In this document: positions 8,795 to 24,523 of the stretch, one piece after another
Position numbering within the stretch: the first letter of the stretch is position 1
Layout: the number at the start of each line of letters is the position of its first letter
Virus record (IMG/VR): IMGVR_UViG_3300032677_001852
Location: 1-24,829 of that record
DNA length: 24,829 nucleotides
Source: a virus
Reading direction: 5' to 3' (one strand)
Program-made: the position numbers and the translations under genes
Notes under the pieces: model-generated
The model's input: only the letters and a program-made list of their open reading frames with translations
Told to the model about the DNA's origin: nothing
Database searches by the model: none

Positions 8795-9576
8795 TTTTTG
8801 TCCTTACATTTATCGCCGTGAAAACGAGCATAGCCATTTACTGCTATTAATCGATTACAATGCTCGCAAAGTTTCTTTTCTCGTTTACTGCCACGTACCG
8901 CGTCTGCTTTAGCTTTGATAGTTTCTGCCGATTGTTTACGTCCTGTGGCTTTTGCTCTCATTTTTTCTTTTGTAGCATTTGAGTGTGATCCGTCGAAACC
9001 AGGCTTTGTACTTTTATGATTTTTTGATAATTTTTTTCTGTGTTCGTCGGTAATGGGTGGCTTCTTTTTGCCCGTTGTGTTTGCTACCAGTCTTGCGTGT
9101 TGTTCTTTGGTTAGCTTGTTGCCAGTATTTTTTTGGCGAATAGTTTCTTTTGCTTTATCAGTGTGGCGCTTATTGTACATTGGATTTCCTGCGCCTTTCA
9201 TAGCATCACTTTGTAATTTAGCTCGTTCGGCACGAATTCCTTCAAGTCGTCTTGAAGAGAAATGTCTATTACTAACTTGATTATGATTTACTACACTTCG
9301 CATTTCGTATGCTTTAAGTACTTTGAAGTATGCTTGTTTGTTATCCTTATAGATTTTTGTTAATAAGAAGTGTACTAGCTCGTGTTCTCTGTCTGTTAAA
9401 TGTGTAATATTACTAGCATCGTCGCTATCGCCTTTGAGCCAACCAGCAGGTCCTTTACGTTTACGGATAGCGTAGAACGATTCCGGAACAATATGATGTC
9501 GTTCTGTATATTCATCGGTAACACGGGTTTGTCCTCGTTTACAGATATTATTGTACCAATTTTTGTATTTGTCCAT
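8791..9576 (-). CDS. Free-standing HNH homing endonuclease with NUMOD-type repeats
   Basis: 261 residues from the ATG at 9576 (MDKYKNWYNNICKRG). A frame 18 codons longer exists, but a CATAAATA late-type element lies between that ATG and this one, so the shorter form is chosen. The N-terminal part carries the HNH core (TERHHIVPESF, then NITHLTDREHELVHFLL). The rest contains NUMOD3-like DNA-binding units (GNPMYNKRHTDKAKETI, TGRKQSAETIKAKADAVRG) and a C-terminal CEHC...H...C cluster (CEHCNRLI, FHGDKC) likely to bind zinc. It sits just after the gp23 terminator, a typical place for a homing endonuclease that spreads into genomes lacking the insertion. No Shine-Dalgarno is seen. Confidence 0.85.
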   Translation of the reverse strand: MDKYKNWYNNICKRGQTRVTDEYTERHHIVPESFYAIRKRKGPAGWLKGDSDDASNITHLTDREHELVHFLLTKIYKDNKQAYFKVLKAYEMRSVVNHNQVSNRHFSSRRLEGIRAERAKLQSDAMKGAGNPMYNKRHTDKAKETIRQKNTGNKLTKEQHARLVANTTGKKKPPITDEHRKKLSKNHKSTKPGFDGSHSNATKEKMRAKATGRKQSAETIKAKADAVRGSKREKKLCEHCNRLIAVNGYARFHGDKCKDKK

Positions 9577-9581
9577 ATTTT

Positions 9582-9589
9582 TATTTATG
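9582..9589 (-). promoter_or_regulatory. Late-promoter-like motif CATAAATA
   Basis: The minus strand reads ACATAAATAAAAATATGG: the element ends 5 nt before the HNH endonuclease ATG. It gives the inserted endonuclease its own late-type promoter downstream of the gp23 terminator. Confidence 0.5.
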
Positions 9590-9636
9590 TTTGTTAAGTC
9601 TACAAATAATATTAACATACACAACAGCATTAGTCA

Positions 9637-9667
9637 ACAAAAAACCCACCGAAGTGGGTTTTTGTTT
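9637..9667 (-). terminator. Rho-independent terminator after gp23
   Basis: The minus strand reads AACCCAC-TTCG-GTGGGTT followed by a run of T. This is a stable stem closed by a C(UUCG)G tetraloop, about 40 bases after the gp23 stop. It ends the head-gene transcript and separates it from the HNH endonuclease. Confidence 0.9.
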
Positions 9668-9704
9668 TGTTGCTTGAAGTACAGAAATACTGTACCAAAA
9701 TGGA

Positions 9705-10901
9705 TCAGCTAAAGCTGAGATTTTGGACAGCTATCTCGCCTACGTAATCTGCTGCGTTACCGAAGGAACTTGCAGTATTAGTGAGCTCGACGAAGCCATA
9801 CCTGGTCATAAATGAAACGACTGGTTCGAAAGTACTTGGATCCAATACAACTCCTGAACTCATCAACGGAATATATGGGCAATAGAAAGCGGCAGCATCT
9901 GCCTCACTAGAACCTTTATATCCAACCAATACAGGCTGTGTATCTTGAGCATAGCTGTTTACGAATACACGTAAACTGCCGTTTAAAGTACCAACAAACT
10001 TGGTGTTTGTAGGAGCTTCAAATGTGCCTTCTGTTGTACGAGCAAAAGCTGAAGTAGTAGCTGACTGTAATACTGTCAACGCTGCACTTGATACAACTGC
10101 CCAGTTACCAGCGCCACGACGTGTACGCTGAGCAATCAAGTTAGCAACACGATTGATAAGCACTGCCAATGCGGCATGTTCGTCACCAACGAATGTAGCT
10201 GTACCTGATACTGTAGCTTGGTTGTATGTGTACTCTGTAGCAGCCAAACTGCTTAATGACAAGAGAATCTCTTGATCGATTTCAGCTGTGATTTCTTGTG
10301 CTAGAGCAGCCATAATTTCTGCTTCAACATCAATACCATGCATAGCCTGTGCGTCTTGAGCACTTTCAAATGTCCAACGTGCTTGTAACTTACGTGTCTT
10401 AGCTTCAACAGCTTGTTTCAAGATCTGGATACTGATCTGCTTACCGCCTGTACCTTCCATAGTTGCTGTATTGTTACCAGTATAGCCAGTAGCTGTAGTG
10501 GTATTTTGTGGCACTGTGGAGTAGGCAGTAGCGATGGTAAACGGACTCAACGCTTCTTGACCTGCTGTTACACTGGTGTTAGCCAAACTGTTGTCTGTCA
10601 AACTCTGTGCATAACGTACACGTAATGTATGGATCTGTGATACAGGTCCAGTCATTGGCTGTACACCAACCAACTCGTTAGCAATAACAGTTGGCATCAC
10701 ACGACGGATTACTGGGAGAATAACACGGTTCAATGTTGCGATGTTACCTGAACTTGTTGAACCTGCTGATGCGTTCTCTTTCAAATACTTACGTGTGTTT
10801 TCAAGGATTACACTCATAGAAGAACGCTTTGAGCCGTTAAGGCCTTCCAGCAGTGCATCTTTAGTTTCACCCCAACGATTTTCTAATAATTCTTGTGACA
10901 T
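9705..10901 (-). CDS. 23: Major capsid protein gp23
   Basis: A 398-residue T4-type major head protein, shorter than T4 gp23 (521) and somewhat shorter than typical cyanophage forms. Recognisable blocks are LENRWGETKDALLEG at the N terminus, RVILPVIRRVMPTVIANELVGVQPMTGP, the central EIDQEILLSLSSLA, and the C-terminal SFMTRYGFVELTN. Residues 40-42 (LKE, before NASAGSTSSGN) fit the (L/I)xE cleavage motif of the gp21 protease, so the first about 42 residues may be removed at maturation; LLE at 17-19 and ILE at 32-34 also fit. A strong ribosome site (AAGGAGACTTAAATG) agrees with high expression. It follows gp22 by 21 bases and is closed by the terminator at 9637-9667. Confidence 0.95.
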   Translation of the reverse strand: MSQELLENRWGETKDALLEGLNGSKRSSMSVILENTRKYLKENASAGSTSSGNIATLNRVILPVIRRVMPTVIANELVGVQPMTGPVSQIHTLRVRYAQSLTDNSLANTSVTAGQEALSPFTIATAYSTVPQNTTTATGYTGNNTATMEGTGGKQISIQILKQAVEAKTRKLQARWTFESAQDAQAMHGIDVEAEIMAALAQEITAEIDQEILLSLSSLAATEYTYNQATVSGTATFVGDEHAALAVLINRVANLIAQRTRRGAGNWAVVSSAALTVLQSATTSAFARTTEGTFEAPTNTKFVGTLNGSLRVFVNSYAQDTQPVLVGYKGSSEADAAAFYCPYIPLMSSGVVLDPSTFEPVVSFMTRYGFVELTNTASSFGNAADYVGEIAVQNLSFS

Positions 10902-10922: not shown

Positions 10923-12017
10923 TTACAGCCCGGCCAAACGCTTCAAATCAATAACGTTGCTATTTGCTTCGTCATCTGATTCTTGGCTACGGACCGATTT
11001 ATCGCCAGTTGCTTCAGACAATGTTTCAGTAATTACTGTTTTGGCTTTTACTGAACCATTCTCTAGCACAGCTGGAAGATACTTTTCGAAAGCGGATTTC
11101 AAACGTTTTGTCTGTACGCTTTCAAGTAAATTACGCATTACCTCGGCTTTTTTCTCGTTTAACGGAGCTAACAGCTCGTCCATTGTGCGGGTACGCTCGT
11201 TGGATTCTTTGATAATACGCATTTCACGCTCTTTTGATTCGACAAGATGTGTTGCTTTCTTGGCGAAACGGATGGCCTCACTAAGTTTGGCGTCTTTTTG
11301 TTGTATGATAGTGTGTAACTTGCGAACTTCGGCTTTTTCATTTAAATGAGTAGCACCAAATTCTGCACTATATGCTTCAAAAATTCTGCGACCAAAGTTG
11401 TTCTCGCGAGCAACTTGGATGTCTTCTTTCAAACTTACAAGTTCAGCTTTGAGATGCTGGCTTACTACACGTGTCATTTTTTCAGCAGATTCTTTTACAA
11501 AACGGCTTTTCAATGATTCTAACTGTTGACGTGCGTTGGCAACCAGTCTAACTTTGGTTTCCACTACTGCCTGCTTGTCTTCAGCAAATTCTTTTATTTC
11601 ACGTGCCAAAGCATGCACAATGAAGCCTTCAAATTTCTTCATGCCATCATTGTGTGCCTTGCGATCTCTACGCAATTCGCCAATTTCTTCAGCTAATTTG
11701 GTCACCATAAAGTTGTTAAACTTGTTGGCGCTTTCCTTAATAGTGTTTTGAAATTTAACGCGATCTTCGGCCAACTGTTGCTTTTCAGCTTTTAGTTGTT
11801 CGACTTCTGCGATGAGACTTTCTGTAACCATGCGATCCAATGCTTCCACCATCACTTGTTTGTCATGCTCATAGCGTTGGGCAAACTCTTCGCGGAGTTC
11901 TGCACGTGCTTGTTCTTTGACTTCAACTATCTTGGCTTCCCAAGCTTCGTTAATCTCTGTACGAGTTTCTTCATTGATCAAGTCGCTATCTAGTAACGGT
12001 TTTAAACTGTCTAGCAT
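10923..12017 (-). CDS. 22: Prohead scaffold (core) protein gp22
   Basis: 364 residues, highly charged and almost entirely helical, with long coiled-coil stretches rich in E, K, A and R, as expected of the T4 gp22 internal scaffold that the gp21 protease degrades during head maturation. Landmarks are MLDSLKPLLDSDLINEETRT at the start and EAYSAEFGATHLNEKAEVRKL in the middle. The position between gp21 and gp23 matches the T4 order. Only one base separates the gp21 stop from this start (TAAAATG), with GAGGG inside the gp21 end as ribosome site. Confidence 0.9.
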   Translation of the reverse strand: MLDSLKPLLDSDLINEETRTEINEAWEAKIVEVKEQARAELREEFAQRYEHDKQVMVEALDRMVTESLIAEVEQLKAEKQQLAEDRVKFQNTIKESANKFNNFMVTKLAEEIGELRRDRKAHNDGMKKFEGFIVHALAREIKEFAEDKQAVVETKVRLVANARQQLESLKSRFVKESAEKMTRVVSQHLKAELVSLKEDIQVARENNFGRRIFEAYSAEFGATHLNEKAEVRKLHTIIQQKDAKLSEAIRFAKKATHLVESKEREMRIIKESNERTRTMDELLAPLNEKKAEVMRNLLESVQTKRLKSAFEKYLPAVLENGSVKAKTVITETLSEATGDKSVRSQESDDEANSNVIDLKRLAGL

Positions 12018-12018
12018 T

Positions 12019-12672
12019 TTATTTCCCTCTTAATTTGAGATCATTGATTAACTTTACTACTTCTGTTTTCAAATATCTCTGTACTTTGTTGTCCTGACTG
12101 GCTTCTTTAGCTACATCAAACAGTCTATGTCCGTGCTTCATGTTAAGAAGACCTTCATAAATTGCTGTTGGATACGCATTTGGAGCACTGGGTTGGGCAA
12201 CCACATCCACAGTGACGATTTCAAAGTCACTGACATGTCCGTTATGGTCGTTGACGTTTCCTGATCCACGACTACTAACACCTAATTTAACACCCGAATC
12301 TAACATGGTTTTTACCAGTGTTCCCATCGGGGTTGGTAATACTTTTAATTTTCCATATCCGCATGGACCATCCATCCACATGTTTTCAATCATGTGACTG
12401 ACTCGATCCAAGTTGATCTTCAAATCGTCTGGGTGATCAACTTCGCCTAACACGCTATGACCTGACTTTATCTGTTCGTTGATAGTATCTACTGCTTTGG
12501 CTATCTCGTTTACTGGATAAACTCTTTCATTTGCATTACGCACCCCACCCTCTATACAAATACCCTTCATGTAAAGCGTTTTTCCGGATCCATCGGCAGC
12601 TTCTTCAGACTCCAATACTACACGAGCCTGAGTAAAGCTGAGATGTTCTTTTAGATAAGTGTTACGCTTCAT
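12019..12672 (-). CDS. 21: Prohead core protein protease gp21
   Basis: A 217-residue serine protease of the herpesvirus assemblin-like fold (T4 gp21, MEROPS family S80). The catalytic His lies in GEVDHPDDL (H80) and the nucleophile Ser in GVSSRGSGNV (S133/S134). The N-terminal strand carries MKGICIEGGVRNANERVYP. It cleaves scaffold and capsid proteins in the prohead. The gene lies 9 bases after the acidic core-protein gene and 1 base before gp22, and lacks a strong Shine-Dalgarno. Confidence 0.93.
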   Translation of the reverse strand: MKRNTYLKEHLSFTQARVVLESEEAADGSGKTLYMKGICIEGGVRNANERVYPVNEIAKAVDTINEQIKSGHSVLGEVDHPDDLKINLDRVSHMIENMWMDGPCGYGKLKVLPTPMGTLVKTMLDSGVKLGVSSRGSGNVNDHNGHVSDFEIVTVDVVAQPSAPNAYPTAIYEGLLNMKHGHRLFDVAKEASQDNKVQRYLKTEVVKLINDLKLRGK

Positions 12673-14877: not shown

Positions 14878-17800
14878 TTAAAGTCCGGCCGGGCCACCGC
14901 TCGGAGCTCCTGGTGTTGGTACAACCGCTGGGGCAGGACCTGCTCCAGTATCTACTTCGGCACTGCCCAAATCAGTATTAGTCAAGTCAGTATTCATATC
15001 TAAATCAGATGATAATCCGCCCGGAGTAATGCCCACACTACGAAGACCTTGTCCTTGCTGTGCCTGCATTTGTGGATTGTCGCGTTCTTCTTTCCATAGT
15101 GTTTCATTTTCTAATATTTCTTCGTCGGACAAACCTAAGAAACGTTTGAGTGTAAATCGTTTGCTGAGATAATTCAATGGTTCTAAAGAAGCAAATGTTG
15201 CTACACGAGCTGTATCCAGCTCAGATTGGCGATAACTGGCAAAATTCTGTGGTTCTGTTAATGTTATGTCAAACAACCCGTTATCAATTTCAAAACCTCT
15301 CCATCGCATGTACATTTTAAATTCGTCATCTAATTTCTGCATTATTAATTTCTGTAGGCGTTCGCAGTATTTGTTGAATCGAAATTCTTGTATTAATGCT
15401 GTACCCACACGTCCATCGTTAGTGGCGGCTCCGGAATCATCCGGTCCTGTGGGCAAATAGCTACTAGGCACACGCAGACCTCTAGCCATTTTGTTGTTAA
15501 AGTATTTTAAATCATCAATTTCGCCTAAGTTTGAATTTTTGGTAAACACACCGGCACTTAACGCAAACGTATGATAGCCATGATAAATTTCATCACCGTC
15601 GATAGTTAAAGTACCAACATCCATTGGCTCATCTAAGTATTCAATTTTAGCAATTCGATGGTTGTGAACGCTTTCTTTTTTACGGAAATCAGACCAGCTA
15701 GTATAGCCATACTGTTTAACCATACTAGTCAGTCCTGTTGCTGTAAATCCTTTGTCTATACTCCAATTGCGAACTTTTTTATCTTTGTTTAATATTGCCA
15801 ATTCATTAACGATGTTGATATTTTTATTCAGTTCATCGATAATATCATTAACAGTTATTTCGTGCGTAGTTTTGTCTTTAACCATATCGATCACACTCTT
15901 AAGCATACTGTGAGAATATGACACTGATTGCAATTCTTTCATATTGCTACGACGTTTTTCGTTGTTTTTCCAATCTTTTAGGTTACGGTCAGATACAAAT
16001 TTACTACGTTCTTCTCTTAGCTCACTAGTCCAACCAGCTTTTTGTTGTTCACATACCCATTGACGATATTCTTCATCTTTGGCCATTTTTTCTAGTTTTG
16101 TTTTGTTTGCTATTTTAAATGCAGCTCTACTGTTAGCGGTCCGGATTGCCTTTGAATCATCATCTAATGATTCAAAGTACTTTTTAAGTCCAGCTGCCTT
16201 ATTCTCATTTAATTCTACTAGTTCTTCTTCTGTTAATGAACTATACCAATTTGTAAATCTTTCACCAACAGTTTTACAATATTTTTCATATTCTGCTAGA
16301 TTATTATCTTTAAGATTTTGTAATCTACGTTTTGCGGCTAGTGTACCCAACTGTTGAGATTCTTTAGAAAATCCATGATGTTGATGTAGTTTTTGATGGT
16401 CGTGCCATGCCATCCAGCATAAATTTTCCGGGCTGTTATCATGCCTGTTAAAATTTACATGATGTCTGACATCATATTTGCCATCACTGTATTCTTCGTT
16501 AAATATTTTATATTTTACTAACGTATCTTTAAACTCATCTGCTACCATTCGATGAGTATATTTCCATTGTTTACTACTATTATCAAAGTATTCTTCATAT
16601 CCATCGAGTTTAGTGTCACAAACTTCTTTTTTACGATATAATGGAATTAAACTATCACCAACTGTCAGTTCATCAGCACGTTTGAATTCTACATCATACT
16701 GGGGAAATTTATGATCTGGTGTACATATAATAGATTCACCATTGTCTAAAGTAATCTTTAAAACTTGTGCTTGCCGTTGCGTCATGCCAGCCCAAGATAC
16801 TAATCCTGGTACAACTTTGCCTGTTATAGGTTCACAACTATAAACCCAAAGCGTTTTACCTTCTGCTAATTCATCAGATACTTGTGCTATAGTAAGTTCT
16901 CTACCATCTAACAATGACACACTAGTGTCCATACTAAAACATCCACCTGGCAATACTTCAATACTACTTCCTCTACCATCTGAAGTTTGCGGGAAAAAGT
17001 AATCTTCATTTACAGACAACGCATTATAACTAGCATCCATCATATTGGCCCCGCCGCCTGATATAGTTGGTATTCTGCGCTGATGCATTTCATTTTTAAC
17101 ACGTTCCACAAACGCCATAGCCATATGGCTGGGCATGTTACCCACATCTATCTTGAACAAACGTCGTTCTGGGGCACGTTGTACACGATATATCAATATA
17201 GAATCTTCTAGTAGCTCTTTTTGTTTGTAAACTTTATAGATATTTTCCAGTATACTTTGTCCAAACGGCCAAAAATAATCTAATCCCTCGTTTAAACTCA
17301 AATGTACCACATGTTTAGAGTCAATACATGATTCATTCATAGCTTGTGTAAAGCGGCTGTTACCCACACCGCCTCCGCCGCCACCACCAGATCCACCGTT
17401 AGGTGCGTTGTAATTATTTCCCGTAGTAACCGAACCAGTGCTACGACTCACATAGTAGTCTGATGTAGTCTTGGCTGCCATGCTCATATTCTGAAAGTTA
17501 GGATTTATATCGCGTATGATATACTGCTCAGGACGTTTGCCTTCGCTTTCATTAACTATGATACGTGCTACTTTAATCATGTCTACCCAATACATTTCAA
17601 ATGTCTCGGGATCACGCACAAACACTTGATCCCCATATTTAATAGTGTTTCGAAACAGTTTAAATATACGTTGATCCAGCTTGTTTAATTTAGTCCATTG
17701 CTGTAACTGTTTTTTTATTATTTCAATTTCATGATCAGTGGGTTTATTTGTAAATTTAATATCAAAAGGAGTGCCATTGTCGCTGTTTTGCTGTGTGCTA

Positions 17801-18111
17801 AATTCTGCGATAATGTCTAAACAAGCATTGACTTCTGAATCACAATCCATGTTTTCATACTGATTGTAGCGTTCTAATCTATTTGGATGTCCAGAATATA
17901 CTTCGGGTAATCTAGACGCATAGTTTCTAAAAGCAAATTCATTGCGACTACCTGACTCAAAATCTCCGCTGTTGCGATTGTACCCAGGCAATCCAAAATT
18001 ATTTTTGCCAGATATAGGACTCAGTTGTCCCAATTGATTAACGTCAGCAACTTTGAAGTACTTTCTCCAAGAACCCCCGTTGCGACTGTTGTGTCCGTCA
18101 TTAGTAGCCAT
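14878..18111 (-). CDS. 20: Portal vertex protein gp20 interrupted by an HNH intein
   Basis: A 1077-residue precursor: N-extein 1-390, intein 391-859, C-extein 860-1077, giving a mature portal of 608 residues. The extein halves match T4-type gp20: YENMDCDSEVNACLDIIAEF, FRNTIKYGDQVFVRDPE, YRVQRAPERRLFKIDVGNMP, then across the junction EVLPGG|SNLGEIDDLKYF, NKMARGLRVPSSYLP and GTALIQEFRFNKYCERLQKL. Gp20 forms the dodecameric DNA-packaging and tail-joining ring. The insertion lies in the conserved LPG stretch of the portal core, so an unspliced product should not assemble. A glycine run near residue 244-250 and a Pro/Gly/Ala-rich C terminus are probably flexible. The start has no Shine-Dalgarno and lies 5 nt after GCTAAATAC. 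Confidence 0.93.
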   Translation of the reverse strand: MATNDGHNSRNGGSWRKYFKVADVNQLGQLSPISGKNNFGLPGYNRNSGDFESGSRNEFAFRNYASRLPEVYSGHPNRLERYNQYENMDCDSEVNACLDIIAEFSTQQNSDNGTPFDIKFTNKPTDHEIEIIKKQLQQWTKLNKLDQRIFKLFRNTIKYGDQVFVRDPETFEMYWVDMIKVARIIVNESEGKRPEQYIIRDINPNFQNMSMAAKTTSDYYVSRSTGSVTTGNNYNAPNGGSGGGGGGGVGNSRFTQAMNESCIDSKHVVHLSLNEGLDYFWPFGQSILENIYKVYKQKELLEDSILIYRVQRAPERRLFKIDVGNMPSHMAMAFVERVKNEMHQRRIPTISGGGANMMDASYNALSVNEDYFFPQTSDGRGSSIEVLPGGCFSMDTSVSLLDGRELTIAQVSDELAEGKTLWVYSCEPITGKVVPGLVSWAGMTQRQAQVLKITLDNGESIICTPDHKFPQYDVEFKRADELTVGDSLIPLYRKKEVCDTKLDGYEEYFDNSSKQWKYTHRMVADEFKDTLVKYKIFNEEYSDGKYDVRHHVNFNRHDNSPENLCWMAWHDHQKLHQHHGFSKESQQLGTLAAKRRLQNLKDNNLAEYEKYCKTVGERFTNWYSSLTEEELVELNENKAAGLKKYFESLDDDSKAIRTANSRAAFKIANKTKLEKMAKDEEYRQWVCEQQKAGWTSELREERSKFVSDRNLKDWKNNEKRRSNMKELQSVSYSHSMLKSVIDMVKDKTTHEITVNDIIDELNKNINIVNELAILNKDKKVRNWSIDKGFTATGLTSMVKQYGYTSWSDFRKKESVHNHRIAKIEYLDEPMDVGTLTIDGDEIYHGYHTFALSAGVFTKNSNLGEIDDLKYFNNKMARGLRVPSSYLPTGPDDSGAATNDGRVGTALIQEFRFNKYCERLQKLIMQKLDDEFKMYMRWRGFEIDNGLFDITLTEPQNFASYRQSELDTARVATFASLEPLNYLSKRFTLKRFLGLSDEEILENETLWKEERDNPQMQAQQGQGLRSVGITPGGLSSDLDMNTDLTNTDLGSAEVDTGAGPAPAVVPTPGAPSGGPAGL
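15535..16941 (-). mobile_element. Intein with HNH homing endonuclease in gp20
   Basis: 469 residues starting at Cys (CFSMDTSVSLLDGRELTI, block A) and ending AGVFTKN with Ser as the +1 residue. Block B is GESIICTPDHKFPQY (TxxH type) and block F is IEYLDEPMDVGTLTIDG with YHGYHTFAL. The residue before the terminal Asn is Lys, not the usual His. The middle carries an HNH nuclease core (DVRHHVNFNRHDNSPENL then CWMAWHDHQKLH) and helical, basic DNA-binding segments, with no LAGLIDADG motif. Self-splicing would restore the portal frame at LPGG-SNLGEID. All splice-junction residues except the penultimate His are present, so it is probably active. Confidence 0.92.
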
Positions 18112-18128: not shown

Positions 18129-20594
18129 TTAGCTTTGTCGTTGTAATATCTTGTTGTTTATACTGTTGGCTTTTTCCATAGTACGCACTATAGCGTCCAA
18201 TTTATTTAACTGCATAGCCATCATGTTCATTTGCTCAGAAGATCCAGTATTTTGTGTCATCTGAACTGGTATATTTCTTCCATCTGGCAATGGTACCACA
18301 GCTTCGGTGTTGTGTAACATAGCAGTATAGCCGCTTTTTGGTCCGCTTAGTATTCCGCCAACCTCGGCTGTGGGCATATTATTAGCAAAAGCCGAAGCAT
18401 ATTGTGTTCGTTTATCTGTTTCTTCTTTTCCACCTGCATACCCTACAGCTTTTCCAGTTTGTTTTATATCGCTTAAATCATATTTCTTCGAAGCTTCTTT
18501 GAAATAAGCCACGGCAATTTTTTCAGCAACTTCGGGATCATTCGCTAGATCCGGATCTTTTACCAAATCAACCCCAATCAACTTACTAAATTTTGAATAA
18601 TTGTCTTTTCCAGTAAGTTGTATAAGTCCTCGGCCACGATATTTGTATCCCTCGTCACCGGCATTGCCCATTCTTCCGCCGTAAATGAAATTACCAATCG
18701 CCTCTGGACCCTGTGCTGCCAGGGCATCTGCCTCGTCTTGTGATTTAAATTTTTTCGGAAACAATTTCATCAATGTTTTACCGGAATAATTTAAATTTTC
18801 TGACTGGGGTTTGAAATTACTTTCTGCTTTTATTTGAGCTAAAATATTTGCCTGCGATTGATTATCTGTTATACCCGAAGCTGACAACAGTTTTACTATG
18901 TCGCCTGGATTTACAGAAGCAGGCTTCCCTCCTGCCGCTGGTTTAAGAGTTGCAGCAGGTGCTGGTGCTGGGGCTGGCGATGGGGCTGGTGCTGGTGCTG
19001 GCGATGGTGCTGGTGCTGGGGCAGGTGCTGGTGCCGGGGCTGGTTTGGGTTTTGCCAGAGGTGCCTCTTGCGGCCCACTGCCTGACACAATATTACCCAT
19101 TTCGTCATATTGAGTTTCCCCCAGCGCCGTTTCTGCTTTAGTAAGAGCGGGGGCTGGTTCTCCCAGTTTACCCAAAGCCTTTGCTGCCGACATTGCGGCA
19201 TTTGCCACAGCTACCATGCCTGTTTGTACAGCTTTTTCGGCAGTTTGAGTAAGCTTACGCTGAGCCATACTTGCCGCCACTGCCACAGCCGTTTCTTTAT
19301 CTGCGCCTGCTTTTTGTTTATCCTGCTGATCTTTGGCATCTTTTATATTTTGTGCCATGGAAGTACCTGCTGTAGAAGCAAATTTTACTAAAACGCCCTG
19401 AGAAGTAATAATCGAATCAGATAATCCAGCACCGGCTAATCCGACTGTATCATTAAGAGTTTTTCTAGAATCTTTGGCTGCCAAATCCATGGCCACACCC
19501 ATGTCTCGGCCACCTTTTTGTATATACGACGCTGTTTCTGGCAAAGATCTAGCTATTTTTTGATATTCAGGATTATTAACTGCTCCAGAAAGCAACAATG
19601 TCATCTGATCTGCAGCTTCTTGTCCACCTTTACCAAAAGCGGCATTTATCAATTCTGTATTTCTAGCCAATTCTTCTTTGGCGGCTATATCCCCAGCATC
19701 TGCTCTTTGTTGTAACTGGAAGGCCTTGCTGGCATATTGTTGTGTGGCCAATGCTTTTTCTTGTACAGAATTTTGTTGATCTGCTGACAAACCAGTTAGT
19801 TTTGTCAATCGGTCTTGTTGTTCTATATAAGCTTCGGCACTGGCTGCCATCTGTTCTGCTGTTTGTTTTTGAGAAGATCCGCTTAACTGTTGTATTTTGA
19901 CATAGCCCGCCATACCTCGATTAATATCATCTACGGTCATGCCCATGCGTTGGAATTGCTCGCCAACACCACTTTCTGCTATACTTTTAGATGCCGCGGC
20001 AAATTGTTTTGCTCCTTGCGCTGCCGTACCTCCTAATGTTGACAAATTAGAGGAATTTTCTTTCATCAAAGCACCCATTTTACCAATCTCACCCATGGTA
20101 TAACCCATGCTTTGTAGATTTTCAAATGTGTCCTGCATGCCAGTAGCTAGTCCGCTACGACTTATGTCTCTATAGCCATCTAATAGTTCTTGACCCTGTT
20201 TGATTGCGGCTTTGGCAAATTCAGTAACAGCCCCAACAGCGAAAACCAAAGCTTTGCCCAACAGTCCCACAGGACCAAGAGCTAAGGTCAATGCGGCACC
20301 AGCAGCATCGGCAGCTGAACCAAATTCCGATACACTATTACCGCCAGATGCTAATGATTTAGCCAAACCCAACGTAGATGAACCTAAATCAGCTTTGGCT
20401 TTTTTCATAGCCTCAGTATAGCCTAATATGCCTTTTTTAGCGTCTGCTAATGCGGTTTCATAGGCTTTTGATGCGGACAAATATTGTGCGGAGCTTTTTC
20501 CATGAGACGCCGCAAAGCGAGTCATATCTTCGGCAGCATTTTCTAAAGCTATACGTAAATCGTCGGAAATTTTCGGGTCAAATTCTTCAGCCAT
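18129..20594 (-). CDS. Tape-measure-like tail protein with GH19-type muralytic domain
   Basis: An 821-residue protein. The N-terminal third is helical with a hydrophobic segment (about 95-130: ALTLALGPVGLLGKALVFAV), as in tape measure proteins. Helical, Gln/Ala-rich sequence continues to about residue 500, followed by a Pro-Ala linker (about 515-547). Residues about 565-745 form a GH19 chitinase/lysozyme-like domain: ANILAQIKAESNFKPQSENL with the candidate catalytic Glu, IGNFIYGGRMGN, and GYKYRGRGLIQLTGKDNYSKF. The C terminus (GGILSGPKSGYTAMLHNTEA, VVPLPDGRNIPV) is typical of tape measure ends. It probably spans the tail tube and locally cuts peptidoglycan during DNA entry. T4 instead carries its lysozyme in gp5. 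A TAAGTA element, not a Shine-Dalgarno, precedes the ATG. Confidence 0.8.
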   Translation of the reverse strand: MAEEFDPKISDDLRIALENAAEDMTRFAASHGKSSAQYLSASKAYETALADAKKGILGYTEAMKKAKADLGSSTLGLAKSLASGGNSVSEFGSAADAAGAALTLALGPVGLLGKALVFAVGAVTEFAKAAIKQGQELLDGYRDISRSGLATGMQDTFENLQSMGYTMGEIGKMGALMKENSSNLSTLGGTAAQGAKQFAAASKSIAESGVGEQFQRMGMTVDDINRGMAGYVKIQQLSGSSQKQTAEQMAASAEAYIEQQDRLTKLTGLSADQQNSVQEKALATQQYASKAFQLQQRADAGDIAAKEELARNTELINAAFGKGGQEAADQMTLLLSGAVNNPEYQKIARSLPETASYIQKGGRDMGVAMDLAAKDSRKTLNDTVGLAGAGLSDSIITSQGVLVKFASTAGTSMAQNIKDAKDQQDKQKAGADKETAVAVAASMAQRKLTQTAEKAVQTGMVAVANAAMSAAKALGKLGEPAPALTKAETALGETQYDEMGNIVSGSGPQEAPLAKPKPAPAPAPAPAPAPSPAPAPAPSPAPAPAPAATLKPAAGGKPASVNPGDIVKLLSASGITDNQSQANILAQIKAESNFKPQSENLNYSGKTLMKLFPKKFKSQDEADALAAQGPEAIGNFIYGGRMGNAGDEGYKYRGRGLIQLTGKDNYSKFSKLIGVDLVKDPDLANDPEVAEKIAVAYFKEASKKYDLSDIKQTGKAVGYAGGKEETDKRTQYASAFANNMPTAEVGGILSGPKSGYTAMLHNTEAVVPLPDGRNIPVQMTQNTGSSEQMNMMAMQLNKLDAIVRTMEKANSINNKILQRQS
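18952..19050 (-). repeat. Pro-Ala hexanucleotide repeat (linker)
   Basis: About 16 degenerate GCTGGT-type hexamers (seen on the plus strand) encode the (PA)n linker, interrupted by two PS units, between the helical tape-measure part and the muralytic domain. Such tracts vary in length between isolates through slippage. Confidence 0.85.
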
Positions 20595-20620: not shown

Positions 20621-21460
20621 ATGAACTCTAATAACCCATTGAAACAATATTTTAGACAGCCTGCTGTGTATATCAAATTACCCAGTCAAGGCAATTACTA
20701 TCCAGCAGGCACATTAGAAATGCCAGAAAATAAAGAATTGCCAGTATACCCTATGACTGCCATAGATGAAATAACCTATCGTACCCCCGATGCGTTACTC
20801 AGCGGACAAGCAGTGATCAATGTGATTCAAAGCTGCGTCCCAAATATAAAAAATGCTTGGTTTATTCCGTCCATAGATGTGGACACTATATTGATAGGCA
20901 TAAGATTAGCTAGTTATGGACACGAAATGGACTTTACTACCAGTTGTCCAGGATGTAACACTACCAAAGACTACGGAGTAGACCTACGCAGAACTTTGGA
21001 TAGTATTCAAGCTCCTGATTATAGTCAACCTATCATACAGGGCGATATTGAAATATATTTCAAACCCATGACTTACAAAAATCTTTCGGATAATAATAAA
21101 ATGCAGTTTGATGATCAACGCACGTTAAACTCTCTAAATATCAGTTCGGCAGATGATGTCACTAAGATATCAGCCATAGCAGATGCCATCAAAAAAATGA
21201 CCGAAATGACAGTGATAGCTCTAGCACAAAGCATAGTTACCATAAAGACACCCACGGCTATAGTAAACGAACCAGAATACATAACAGAATTCATGATAAA
21301 TTGTGACAGAACCATGTTCAATCGCATACAAAATTATGTTATTGAAAAGAAAACCATGGCAGAGATGCAGCCTTTGGAAATAACCTGCGATCAATGTCAG
21401 CATACTTACAAGCAACCACTCACACTGGATATGTCAAATTTTTTCGAGCGCGCCTCCTAA
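20621..21460 (+). CDS. 26: T4 gp26-type baseplate hub / tail-assembly protein
   Basis: A 279-residue protein of the T4 gp26/gp51-like family (PF12322 type). Landmarks are NPLKQYFRQPAVYIKLPSQG, YPAGTLEMPENKELPVYPMT, DEITYRTPDALLSGQAVINV, and an inserted metal-binding pair CPGC (C109, C112) and CDQC (C256, C259), which probably folds as a zinc ribbon. In T4, gp26 takes part in baseplate hub assembly. The family's place beside tape-measure genes also suggests a tail-assembly chaperone role, which is inference. The gene is divergent from the tape-measure gene. Close to its end it carries the slippery heptamer A AAT TTT, and it is followed after 2 bases by a 70-residue partner in the -1 frame. Confidence 0.8.
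   Translation: MNSNNPLKQYFRQPAVYIKLPSQGNYYPAGTLEMPENKELPVYPMTAIDEITYRTPDALLSGQAVINVIQSCVPNIKNAWFIPSIDVDTILIGIRLASYGHEMDFTTSCPGCNTTKDYGVDLRRTLDSIQAPDYSQPIIQGDIEIYFKPMTYKNLSDNNKMQFDDQRTLNSLNISSADDVTKISAIADAIKKMTEMTVIALAQSIVTIKTPTAIVNEPEYITEFMINCDRTMFNRIQNYVIEKKTMAEMQPLEITCDQCQHTYKQPLTLDMSNFFERAS
21436..21442 (+). promoter_or_regulatory. Candidate -1 ribosomal frameshift site (A AAT TTT)
   Basis: In the gp26-type frame the codons are TCA AAT TTT TTC, so the seven bases AAATTTT fit X XXY YYZ exactly. Slipping back one base enters an open frame through 11 further codons to the ATG of the partner gene and on to its stop, giving a 351-residue fusion. A 6-bp stem (CAGATC at 21475-21480 with GATCTG at 21496-21501) lies about 33 bases downstream, rather far for a classical stimulator. 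Confidence 0.4.
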
Positions 21461-21462
21461 CT

Positions 21463-21675
21463 ATGACCAACGAACAGATCTCAGAATACATAGATGATCT
21501 GGATAAAGAATCAGATGCGATAAGGACGGAGGCGTTACGTATGTGTTGGTACATGCGGGGTGGAATTACCTATGATGATGCCATGCAGCTCAGTAACTCA
21601 GAAAAACAATTGATATCAAAGATTATTGATGAAAACTTAGAAACGACGAAAAAAACAGGACTTAACTTTTTTTAA
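21463..21675 (+). CDS. Small partner of the gp26-type protein, possible tail-assembly chaperone segment
   Basis: A 70-residue helical protein: MTNEQISEYIDDLDKESDAI, then ALRMCWYMRGGITYDDAMQLS, ending ENLETTKKTGLNFF. The ATG lies 2 bases after the gp26-type stop, with no Shine-Dalgarno in front of it (TTCGAGCGCGCCTCCTAACTATG), so it is translated either by stop-restart coupling or as a -1 frameshift extension of the gp26-type protein. The same frame is open upstream to 21394. The paired arrangement recalls the G/GT tail-assembly chaperones of lambda-type phages. I do not recognise a named T4 equivalent with certainty. Confidence 0.7.
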   Translation: MTNEQISEYIDDLDKESDAIRTEALRMCWYMRGGITYDDAMQLSNSEKQLISKIIDENLETTKKTGLNFF

Positions 21676-21855
21676 AAATATTAAACTTTATTAATAGAAG
21701 TATGAAAAATACATTTATTCAAAACAAAAGATGTGCGAGTCTAAATCAGAAGAACATAAAGACAATATGTTTGAAACCTCTAAAGACATACCAGCAATCA
21801 AGTAGACAAAAGCTAAAAACAAATTTGTTAAAGAGTTAATTTGAATAATATTAAA
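21676..21855. other. AT-rich non-coding stretch after the gp26-type unit
   Basis: About 180 bases, strongly A-rich on the plus strand, with no open frame of note, no tRNA and no strong hairpin. It appears to be a 3' untranslated region leading to the convergent terminators. I see nothing else in it. Confidence 0.6.
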
Positions 21856-21874
21856 AGATTAGCTACGCTAATCT
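21856..21874 (-). terminator. Terminator-like hairpin for minus-strand transcripts
   Basis: The minus strand reads AGATTAGC-GTA-GCTAATCT, then TTTTAATATT: an 8-bp perfect stem with a modest T run. It would end transcription of the candidate RNA or of read-through from the GIY-YIG gene. The hairpin lies back to back with the plus-strand terminator. Confidence 0.5.
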
Positions 21875-21906
21875 AAGATCTCGTTTGCACTCGATCTTAT
21901 TTTTTT
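21875..21906 (+). terminator. Rho-independent terminator for the gp26-type unit
   Basis: The plus strand reads AAGATC ... GATCTT (6-bp stem, 12-base loop) followed by ATTTTTTT. It lies about 200 bases after the 70-residue gene, with the 8-bp hairpin of the opposite strand directly before it. Confidence 0.6.
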
Positions 21907-22279
21907 AGCTTTTGATTGTAGCACTTCATCTAGATTAACAGCTCATAATTCACCGTAAACACGGTGAATTCAATGACTTCATCTGAGTTGCACAGTCATC
22001 TATCATAAAGAGATTGTAGTTTCCTACGCGGAGGCGGTTGACCGGTACCCCCTACTCTAGCTTCACATGTCAACGGAACCCTAGTGACTTGATGATAAAT
22101 CCAAGTTCTATAAGCATGGGTCGTATCTTTTTCCACGGAGCCCAAACCATTTGTTGCCTTAAGTTAGCTTTTGCCTTTGACGCCCGAGCGAACCGAAGTC
22201 CATTCTATCCGAGCTGGGTATCTCACCAGCCCTCAACGGGGATCGAGCAGCCTCGATCAAACGTAGTCGGTTAGATGCC

Positions 22280-22720
22280 TTACTGTGATGCTTGTAATTT
22301 ATTGATTATATGGCTGCCATGTACGCGGACTTGTATATGCCCGTTATAGTAGTCGTTAGTTTCTAACACACGTCTACTAAACTGTTCTCTGGCCTCTATG
22401 TAACTGCATTCGGCTTTTGAACGGCAATAATACAAAATCTCTCTGGTAAAGTTTTCGATGCCTAATTTTTCAATATCTTGATTGAGTTCTATACTGCTGC
22501 CGGTGTACTGTTGCCAGTCGCTGTCTATTTTACTACGGATGCGTTTTCTTTTTTTGATGCCGTTTTTTTGTTTAACTGTTTTATATGTTGTTTTACTAAA
22601 TTTTGCTAATTTTTTACCAATATATTTTCTGCCAGTCAAGTTATTTTTAATCAAATAAACAAAACCAACACAGTCGTCGGGTAGTGATTCTACAGTAGTA
22701 TTTTCGAAAAGCCAGGGCAT
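22280..22720 (-). CDS. GIY-YIG nuclease-domain protein
   Basis: A 146-residue protein. The GIY-YIG motif is GFVYLIKNNLTGRKYIGKK (residues 19-37), followed by basic sequence (KTVKQKNGIKKRKRIRSK), SDWQQYTGSS, and the helix AECSYIEAREQFSRRVLETN with the candidate metal-binding Glu, then NDYYNGHIQVRVHGSHI. It has no separate DNA-binding module, so it is a compact single-domain enzyme: a Seg-like homing endonuclease or a resident phage nuclease. It lies 39 bases downstream of gp46 and immediately upstream of the candidate structured RNA, with its TAA at the RNA's 5' edge. Confidence 0.8.
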   Translation of the reverse strand: MPWLFENTTVESLPDDCVGFVYLIKNNLTGRKYIGKKLAKFSKTTYKTVKQKNGIKKRKRIRSKIDSDWQQYTGSSIELNQDIEKLGIENFTREILYYCRSKAECSYIEAREQFSRRVLETNDYYNGHIQVRVHGSHIINKLQASQ

Positions 22721-22759: not shown

Positions 22760-24523
22760 TTACTCTACCTCAACATCTGTGTTGTAACTGGTATATCCAT
22801 TTTCTTTTACTACTTTTAATATATTCTCTACACGACTAACTAACTCGTCTCGATGCGAAACCAGCCATATGCTCTTTTGTCTTTCACGACTCATTTGTTT
22901 TAAAAGAGCAAGGGCGTTCTCAACACCCTGGGTATCAAGACCGTTATCTATCATTTCATCCACAAAGAGTAAATTAATCGGTTGATACAGCGATTCAAAC
23001 ACATCTCGAAAGGCCCATGCCATACTTAGTATTAATCGATTCCTTTCACCTCTGGACAGATTATCAAAATCAAGTTCTCTGCCCAGCTCTTCAATGCTAA
23101 CAGTGAGATCGTTTTGAAACACCACGGTATGCGGTAATCCCATACGATCTAGATAGTGTGTTAGTCTTGTATTGAGATAACTTAAATTTTGTTCTATAAT
23201 CTTTTTTCGTATAAAACTGTCTTTGCTAGTTAATAACTTTAGCAAAAAGTCCTGATGATCTTGTAGTCTTGTAAGTTCGTTGACTGTGTCATATGACACT
23301 TCTTCGGCGGCTGTAGCAGTCATCTCTTCTATCTGTTCCGCATAAGGATCAATTTCTACACGTTTCGCATCTAGTTCTTTTTGTAGATTGGCGAGATTGG
23401 CTCGATGTTGTATGGCATCTTCTTCTTTGTCATAAAACATCACTGGACGTTTGCCTATCTTACCTAAACTATCAACACTTGATTGTAATTCATTGACAAG
23501 ATCAAGATATTGTTGGCATGCTGTGATAGCTGTTGATAATTCTTTCTTTTTTTCCGCTAGCACTGCCTCGTGTTTGTGATCATGGAACTCTTGACCGCAG
23601 GTATGGCAAGTGTGTTGTTCAAGTGTAGCGATTTCGTTAGTAAGCTTCTTAGTTGTTTTTTCTTCTCGAGCATGATCCATTTTTGCTCGGCTAATTGCCG
23701 TCGCATGGTCGTTTAGATTTTTCCTCAGTGCTTCCCATGTTGCAAATGCTTTGTGTGATGAAATTTCAGCTTCGATGTCAATTTCTTGAAACGTTGCCAG
23801 CGCCGATTCAAGCGATAACAAGTCTTCTGCATTTTTTGCTTGCCATAATGTTTGTCTACGCTTAACTGCTTCTATTTGTTCTTGTATGCGTTTGTTAGCA
23901 TCTTGAACAGCACGTATTCTAAATTCTTCCCGAGTAATATCTTCTTTGGTTGTGCGTGATAATTCTTTAATGCGTTCAGCACGTTCACTTAACATGGTAA
24001 TGCCCAACAACTGCTCGATAATAGTGCGTTGATCGTTGGCTTTTAATGATAAAAACGGCTCAGTATAAGTATTCAATGCCATGATATGTTTAAACATGTC
24101 ATGACTCATACCCAAAATATCTTCTATGGCGTCTTGTGTTTCACGGCTATCACCTTGGGCATTGTCTTCTGCCTCAGTGACTTTGTTATTGACATAGAAT
24201 TTTAAAATGTTAGGCTTACGTCCGCGTTCAATTTTATATTCTTGTTCACCAACAACAAAGTCTAAACTTACCATCATACCTTTGGTGTTGGTTTTATTAA
24301 CAAGATTGTCTCGGCGAATATTACTCAATGCTTGCCCATATAAAGCATAGCTTAGGGCGTTTATGATTGTAGTTTTCCCTGTGCCATTCCTGGATCCGTC
24401 CCCACCCAAATCTAAATTTTCTCCCAGTACCAAAGTTAAATCATTGCGATCAAAATTAATACCTTGTGTGGCATTACCCACACTCATGAAATTTTTAACT
24501 AAAAGATTTTTTATTTTAATCAT
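22760..24523 (-). CDS. 46: Recombination nuclease subunit gp46 (Rad50-like)
   Basis: A 587-residue SMC/Rad50-type ATPase. The Walker A motif is GENLDLGGDGSRNGTGKTT (34-52), with the insertion usual in gp46. Long coiled coils flank a zinc-hook CHTC (about 306-309, followed by GQEFHDHKH). The ABC signature is LSRGERNRLILSMAW (about 487-501), and Walker B is INLLFVDEMIDNGLD (about 514-528). With the gp47 nuclease it resects DNA ends for recombination-dependent replication. Its ATG overlaps the gp47 stop by 4 bases (ATGA), the usual 47-46 order. Confidence 0.95.
   Translation of the reverse strand: MIKIKNLLVKNFMSVGNATQGINFDRNDLTLVLGENLDLGGDGSRNGTGKTTIINALSYALYGQALSNIRRDNLVNKTNTKGMMVSLDFVVGEQEYKIERGRKPNILKFYVNNKVTEAEDNAQGDSRETQDAIEDILGMSHDMFKHIMALNTYTEPFLSLKANDQRTIIEQLLGITMLSERAERIKELSRTTKEDITREEFRIRAVQDANKRIQEQIEAVKRRQTLWQAKNAEDLLSLESALATFQEIDIEAEISSHKAFATWEALRKNLNDHATAISRAKMDHAREEKTTKKLTNEIATLEQHTCHTCGQEFHDHKHEAVLAEKKKELSTAITACQQYLDLVNELQSSVDSLGKIGKRPVMFYDKEEDAIQHRANLANLQKELDAKRVEIDPYAEQIEEMTATAAEEVSYDTVNELTRLQDHQDFLLKLLTSKDSFIRKKIIEQNLSYLNTRLTHYLDRMGLPHTVVFQNDLTVSIEELGRELDFDNLSRGERNRLILSMAWAFRDVFESLYQPINLLFVDEMIDNGLDTQGVENALALLKQMSRERQKSIWLVSHRDELVSRVENILKVVKENGYTSYNTDVEVE

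Follow-up and report, generated by a model that had tools for sequence, protein, structure and literature searches.

A large structured RNA of T4-like phages with paired repeats that change together

What occupies the gene-free interval behind the GIY-YIG gene of this virus? The window analysed here is the whole 24,829-base virus record, which carries T4-like genes, including those for a portal protein with an intein, a baseplate protein and a gp46-like nuclease. The interval sits between a SegE-type GIY-YIG gene (PF19835; 22280..22720, minus strand), itself preceded by the gene for a gp46-like recombination nuclease subunit (22760..24523, minus), and two plus-strand genes that converge on it, orf93 (21394-21675) and the T4 baseplate protein gene (20621-21460). 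Elsewhere in the window, the gp20-like portal protein (14878-18111, minus) contains an intein splicing domain (PF14890), and 18129-20594 (minus), between the portal and baseplate genes, encodes a protein of 821 aa with a stretch of the glycoside hydrolase 19 family (chitinase class I). The initial annotation had proposed that the interval encodes a minus-strand structured RNA. Homolog alignments, covariation and a terminator scan identify it as a non-coding structured RNA of T4-like phages, predicted to span ~416 nt on the minus strand (21856..22271). The terminator marks its 3' end; its 5' end is placed to within some tens of bases.

The interval had been described as gene-free, with a conserved protein reading frame through it named as one observation that would speak against an RNA. 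No reading frame is kept among 60 relatives, and a conserved protein, including one in the plus-strand frame at 22038-22274, was therefore rejected. Taking the most open of six frames in each relative, the longest run without a stop codon is 69 codons at the median (range 40-121; the total length is ~133-139 codons in three rows of this test). Moreover, anchor-to-anchor distances in the 60 relatives take all three values modulo 3.

The secondary structure is kept by compensatory changes. It was scored on an alignment (A3) of 60 sequences drawn at random from the 79 sequences of the window's own type, type A, whose ends could be placed. A 77-pair structure with a pseudoknot is paired in 97.7% of 4,574 cells, and both-sided changes occur at 35 of the 77 pairs (392 double-change cells). 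Sliding the partners by 1-3 columns reduced pairing to 34.9-47.0%, with 9-18 doubly changed pairs and 19-57 double-change cells, a comparison that favours the proposed structure because it was derived from the very sequences scored. None of 500 shuffles, which break the relatedness among sequences, did as well as the real alignment in pairing, in doubly changed pairs or in covariation score; the count of further pair types was not above the shuffles (189/500 reach the observed value). A 5' hairpin before 22240, where the alignment is shifted, was left out of the pair count. Two candidate helices were also discarded: columns 99-102/462-464 showed no double change, and columns 221-224/400-403 were removed because they lacked double changes and compete with a compensated pairing. 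Thus, the strong helices of the initial annotation hold up by compensatory change, though the folding energy is unremarkable. On the minus strand the z score is -0.84 and 20 of 100 shuffles fold as well; on the plus strand it is -1.99, with 3 of 100 shuffles as good. Folding energy alone would have pointed to an artefact or chance folding, an explanation overturned by covariation. The choice of the minus strand is likewise supported: six G-U pairs (columns 111/119, 173/188, 174/187, 196/219, 228/246 and 231/243) are near-invariant in 58-60 of 60 rows and would become A-C mismatches on the plus strand.

Read 5' to 3' on the minus strand, the RNA begins with a 5' body domain (22183..22240) in which helix 22240-22237/22186-22183 encloses helices 22232-22230/22213-22211 and 22228-22226/22217-22215, all three with double changes. 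Covariation helices 4-6 lie within 22117..22168 and comprise a hairpin (22168-22166/22158-22156) and a stem (22144-22141/22120-22117) with inner pairs 22137-22136/22123-22122; the outermost pair of this stem is UA in 33 rows, GC in 18 and CG in 7. A 10-pair hairpin (22110-22101/22092-22082; helix 7, 22082..22110) is paired in 99.5% of cells and doubly changed at three pairs. It is followed by a near-invariant hairpin (22059..22081; helix 8, no double change), whose loop supplies the 5' strand of the pseudoknot (22074-22069). The core is closed by stem 22058-22055/22012-22009 (22009..22058; helix 10), with an outer pair that is UA in 41 rows and AU in 19, and contains a core stem (22052-22047/22035-22030; 22030..22052; helix 11) with double changes at one pair.

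The 3' strand of the pseudoknot (GUUGAC/GUCAAC; 22037..22042) lies inside the 20-mer GGGGGUACCGGUCAACCGCC (22052-22033). The pseudoknot, earlier listed as possible, is real: it is nearly invariant within type A and occurs in three compensated forms across types, GUUGA/UCAAC (151), GUUGU/ACAAC (135) and GUCGU/ACGAC (4), of 298 pattern matches that count overlapping loci. Eight of the 298 are unpaired by the pseudoknot rule, and two of these (L153 and L188) look like stray matches. Also within the core is the GNRA hairpin GUAG-GAAA-CUAC (22016..22027; helices 12-13), which the initial annotation had recognised and whose stem varies by compensation. A long A/T-rich sequence replaces this hairpin in L111, L032/L105, L107 and L151, so the position tolerates extra sequence. 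The C(UUCG)G loop recognised alongside it is present in the window, in a long hairpin extension; this extension is found in 4 of 60 A3 rows (the window, L009, L014 and L020), and UUCG itself in the window only.

The 3' part carries two copies of a short repeat around a hairpin. Copy 1 (CTC + AGATGAA + G) occupies 21977..21987, with its 7-nt word at 21978-21984; copy 2 (TCT + AGATGAA + G) occupies 21924..21934, with its word at 21925-21931. The copies are 53 nt apart in the window, and between them lies a hairpin (UUCACCGU...ACGGUGAA; 21949..21968; helix 14). Beyond copy 2 follow a stem-loop of variable sequence (21875..21898; helix 15), paired in 88.8% of cells and doubly changed at 6/6 pairs, and an intrinsic terminator hairpin (21856..21874; helix 16), doubly changed at 6/8 pairs. 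The terminator, detected by the terminator scan as well, consists of stem 21874-21856 and then TTTAATATTA, at the 3' edge where it had been placed.

This large folded non-coding RNA is found in many environmental bacterial viruses, some of them giant. The exact minus-strand 20-mer matches at least 120 stretches in IMG/VR. Among 80 loci retrieved solely through the neighbouring GIY-YIG protein, a search with the window sequence (nhmmer) matched 56, a fairer figure than the overall 177 of 201, since the latter set includes the window itself and 120 loci picked by the exact 20-mer. Among the 24 unmatched GIY-YIG loci, nine have the core pattern, three more have RF01718 and nine show a third type (type C, below) by weak matches; of the rest, L016 and L067 stop at the gene or close to it, and no recognised RNA is seen in L070, which has a GIY-YIG gene and ~900 nt beyond it. 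Among 16 longer phage records searched with the window RNA, eight gave strong matches (E below 1e-50), at one place each, including records of 337, 340 and 347 kb. In named phages only short pieces align, with coverage never above 7% of a type A query or 6% of a type B query, and a shared-domain model searched against stretches of six such phages gave no convincing hit (best E 0.28). The exact core pattern is absent from a bacterial genome collection (84,980 species, contigs of at least 3,000 bases).

The genomic setting recurs among these relatives. When loci are selected by the RNA 20-mer alone and must have 700 nt of sequence upstream, 99 of 103 have a same-strand GIY-YIG gene no more than 2.5 kb upstream; over all fetched places, which include those fetched via the GIY-YIG gene itself, the counts are 132/136 for type A and 118/120 for type B. 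The spacing between RNA and GIY-YIG gene resembles that in the window in many other loci. Downstream genes are convergent at 92/102 type A and 95/101 type B places with room (overlapping loci counted), the remainder being without a hit, and the RNA is thus excluded as a 5' leader of the next gene where this arrangement is seen. Upstream of the window RNA, a scan of the minus strand gave no sigma-70-like site. Immediately before the RNA, six loci (L009, L010, L020, L026, L094 and L117) share a similar stretch that contains segments resembling GUUAGGGGAAGCCC and CCAGUGAAACUCUGG, which suggests a 5' extension of the RNA in some relatives.

Does the RNA belong to a described class? At gathering score, the Rfam search proposed in the initial annotation returned no hit for the whole window. 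At E up to 10, the interval gave five sub-threshold hits among all Rfam families; the best, mir-183 (E 0.0075, 23.9 of 53 bits), fits the repeat-flanked hairpin and was taken for chance. The earlier statement that the interval matches no tRNA, tmRNA, RNase P or group I/II intron agrees with Rfam at E up to 10 and with ARAGORN, which found no tRNA or tmRNA in the window; these classes were rejected, for introns also because no split gene is seen in the window. Nor do the Rfam models of GOLLD, ROOL and OLE match in the window.

A sister type links the RNA to a known motif. RF01718 (Polynucleobacter-1), a table row marked 'y y ?' in Weinberg 2010 (PMC2864571), was found in 13/20 and 9/20 loci of two sets (best E 1.1e-25), and window-only nhmmer reaches 13 of these 22 loci (for example, L072 at 1.1e-9 and L057 at 3.7e-9). 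A model (R1) built from types A and B, partly from the same contigs as those tested, placed a window-type 3' domain directly downstream of RF01718 on the same strand in 22/22 loci. These type B RNAs, of which 83 non-redundant sequences were aligned, carry RF01718 at the 5' end (model positions 1-141) and resemble the window in their similar core, twin repeats, terminator and position behind the same kind of GIY-YIG gene. Since the RF01718 model spans only about the 5' third of type B, beside a window-like 3' domain in all 22 loci, it represents a fragment of a longer RNA. The 5' body of the window differs: RF01718 does not appear among the matches to 21680-22320, even at E up to 10 (curated cut-off 37 bits). 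The window is therefore type A, absent from Rfam, in which the common pseudoknotted core and 3' platform are joined to another 5' body. Type C has a third 5' body behind the same kind of GIY-YIG gene; it comprises nine loci with weak R1 matches (E 0.0006 to 0.043) and no Rfam match at gathering score. Type C loci behind the GIY-YIG gene include L073, L005, L037, L042, L044, L048 and L066. In the literature searched, no paper besides PMC2864571 was found for Polynucleobacter-1 or RF01718 by name or number, and no published description of the longer RNA with its twin repeats.

The paired repeats, missed in the initial annotation, are the most unusual part of the RNA. In types A, B and C, a hairpin is flanked by two copies of one 7-nt word, and the word itself differs between phages (AGATGAT, GGATAAT, AGATAAT, GGATGAT, AGATGAA, ACATGAA and others). 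When copies were compared via alignment columns rather than pattern matches, they were equal at the three variable sites in 94/94, 94/94 and 93/94 type A sequences and in 82/83, 83/83 and 82/83 type B sequences, against 45-76% agreement expected from column make-up. No other pair of variable columns is at least 97% identical, of 19,701 pairs in type A and 41,328 in type B. Mismatched copies within the alignments occur in L150 (type A) and in L050 and L271 (type B). The type A alignment holds 94 of 111 non-redundant sequences, with 17 divergent ones left out (13 type B and 4 type-A-like); of the type-A-like outliers, L172 has equal words, L115 is one letter off, the copies of L033 disagree at the first site and those of L181 are unlike. 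Three type B rows outside the pattern matches (L224, L250 and L258) have equal words by eye. In type C, ACATGAA occurs twice in 7/7 sequences read.

The equality of the copies is accompanied by repeated change. The twin-repeat word changed at least 26 times on a tree. At its three variable sites, the RNA-body tree requires a minimum of 20, 14 and 6 changes, with identical numbers for the two copies. Restricting the test to well-supported branches left 8, 4 and 3 independent pairs, all agreeing (p 0.008, 0.125 and 0.25), so that significance is reached by the set of the first site alone. Gene conversion between the copies was considered and is disfavoured, because it should also have evened out the neighbouring letters: those before the word are nearly always CTC at copy 1 and TCT at copy 2 (exception, L011), and they remain different. 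This joint change suggests a twin recognition site for one partner.

Searches for what keeps the copies equal were directed at the RNA, its flanks, neighbouring proteins and related genomes. No consistent third strand pairing with both repeats was found inside the RNA (Watson-Crick 6-mers, without G-U); among the bins of this search, one near the 3' flank had 6 own-type hits versus 0.8 for other types, and another had 0 versus 6.1. Complements of the own-type word are not enriched in flanking DNA. Between two ~340-kb relatives that differ by an AGATAAT-to-GGATGAT change, this change occurs in the aligned DNA (212,560 bases in 248 pieces, overlaps included) solely at the two repeats. Likewise, no residue in five neighbouring proteins tracks the word (48-90 loci per protein); the best residue scores 0.66, versus 1.0 for the other repeat copy. 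The likeliest remaining explanation is that the copies are held equal by one partner bound twice, which would be a host or phage RNA outside these data or a sequence-reading protein encoded elsewhere.

As a whole, we consider these results best explained by a scaffold RNA, related to RF01718, that would offer twin sites to one partner in trans, with a probability of about 0.45. The transcript would probably arise from the gp46/GIY-YIG operon or from an unrecognised phage promoter, and would end at the terminator. Its folded body and pseudoknot may form a rigid scaffold, and the 3' platform would carry the short word in two copies flanking a hairpin, for binding of the same partner, be it an RNA or a protein that reads sequence. 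We propose that both copies must change together because the recognition sequence of the partner varies by phage. A more specific version, which we put forward tentatively, is a targeting RNA: the scaffold would present a reprogrammable word of ~7 nt twice and hold two copies of a phage- or host-specific partner at a fixed distance, with the three 5' bodies (A, B and C) set on one twin-site platform.

Several other readings were weighed against this one. In the window, ~10 bases or less separate the stop codon of the GIY-YIG gene from the RNA, which shares its strand and runs to a terminator. This layout would fit a cis-acting 3' UTR that protects the message of the gp46/GIY-YIG operon or terminates it, with repeats that bind a phage RNA-binding protein regulating the operon; the 'y y ?' entry in the Weinberg table (PMC2864571) also accords with such a role. 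However, the sequence directly upstream of the RNA varies among loci, the RNA lies ~1 kb away from the GIY-YIG gene in L003, L004 and L007, it is present in L103, L127 and L181, where no GIY-YIG gene was found, and it is larger and more conserved than a usual 3' UTR, so that we regard this reading as unlikely. The adjacency of the GIY-YIG gene in the loci found by the 20-mer would equally suit a remnant of a homing intron with this gene as its endonuclease. That origin is disfavoured to the point of being barely credible, since Rfam at E up to 10 lists no group I/II intron, no interrupted gene is seen in the window, three loci keep the RNA without the gene, and the structure extends to the terminator.

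The RNA could instead be a self-assembling large phage RNA of the GOLLD/ROOL kind, with the repeats as part of an assembly interface. It shares their style, being phage-borne, large, pseudoknotted and more conserved 3' than 5' (as GOLLD is described in part of PMC12286853), and two named phages, Phosso and PA5oct, have long, well-folding gene-free or gene-poor stretches at a like place. Against this, neither family is among the Rfam hits at E up to 10, the window has no tRNA, whereas GOLLD and ROOL are often near tRNA islands (PMC12286853), and the repeats are identical rather than complementary, so that kissing by base pairing is impossible; we consider this reading improbable too. A further possibility is that equality of the copies matters and the word is neutral. 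In DRT2-type reverse transcriptases, the polymerase jumps between copies on the template, and a template of this type or a bypass-like element would account for a drifting word with equal copies and for the intervening hairpin. A template RNA of this type was rejected for want of a cognate enzyme: no reverse transcriptase (PF00078) was found at E up to 0.1 in any of 16 phage records, which are possibly incomplete (none is rated 90% complete). Ribosome bypass is opposed by the absence of a kept reading frame, and the idea as a whole appears very unlikely.

The trans-acting scaffold with twin sites thus remains our preferred reading. Beyond the choice of mechanism, a motif from 2010, held in Rfam, proves to be part of a much larger RNA, for which a structure, a genomic setting and two sister types can now be given. 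The constraint on its repeats, in which the copies are equal and the word is free, goes beyond ordinary secondary structure and makes a sharp experiment possible.

How does this RNA compare with known systems? In Sinorhizobium phage Phosso (PV764938.1, L363), a 1,014-nt gap without annotated genes (9411-10424) lies downstream of gp46, flanked by genes for a Holliday junction resolvase and RNase HI, and folds very strongly (z -7.76, 20 shuffles). It contains a sub-threshold match to EGFOA RNA (RF02955), which scores 29 bits where the cut-off is 37.7 (E 0.0045 when this stretch is searched). A larger search does not list EGFOA up to E 0.2, and it is unmatched in the window; the gap is a possible positional analogue of the window RNA. 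In Pseudomonas phage PA5oct (NC_071039.1, L361), the gene-poor stretch at 11149-12080, between gp46 and a baseplate hub gene, contains three small hypothetical genes, has a perfect TTGACA-17-TATAAT promoter in front and folds with z -2.3 (20 shuffles). This stretch does not match the window RNA by the shared-domain model, and the two named-phage stretches show no sequence similarity to each other. The initial annotation had placed the RNA in an unidentified class of the GOLLD/ROOL kind, which is right in kind; it is not a recognisable GOLLD or ROOL, and the 5' third of its sister type is Polynucleobacter-1. Like these comparable large phage RNAs, whose functions are described as poorly understood (PMC12286853), the window RNA is large, ornate, phage-borne and pseudoknotted, and GOLLD too has a conserved 3' part and a less conserved 5' part (PMC12286853). 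Unlike them, it is shorter, lies beside gp46 rather than tRNA genes and has no Rfam match; its paired direct repeats may be a further difference.
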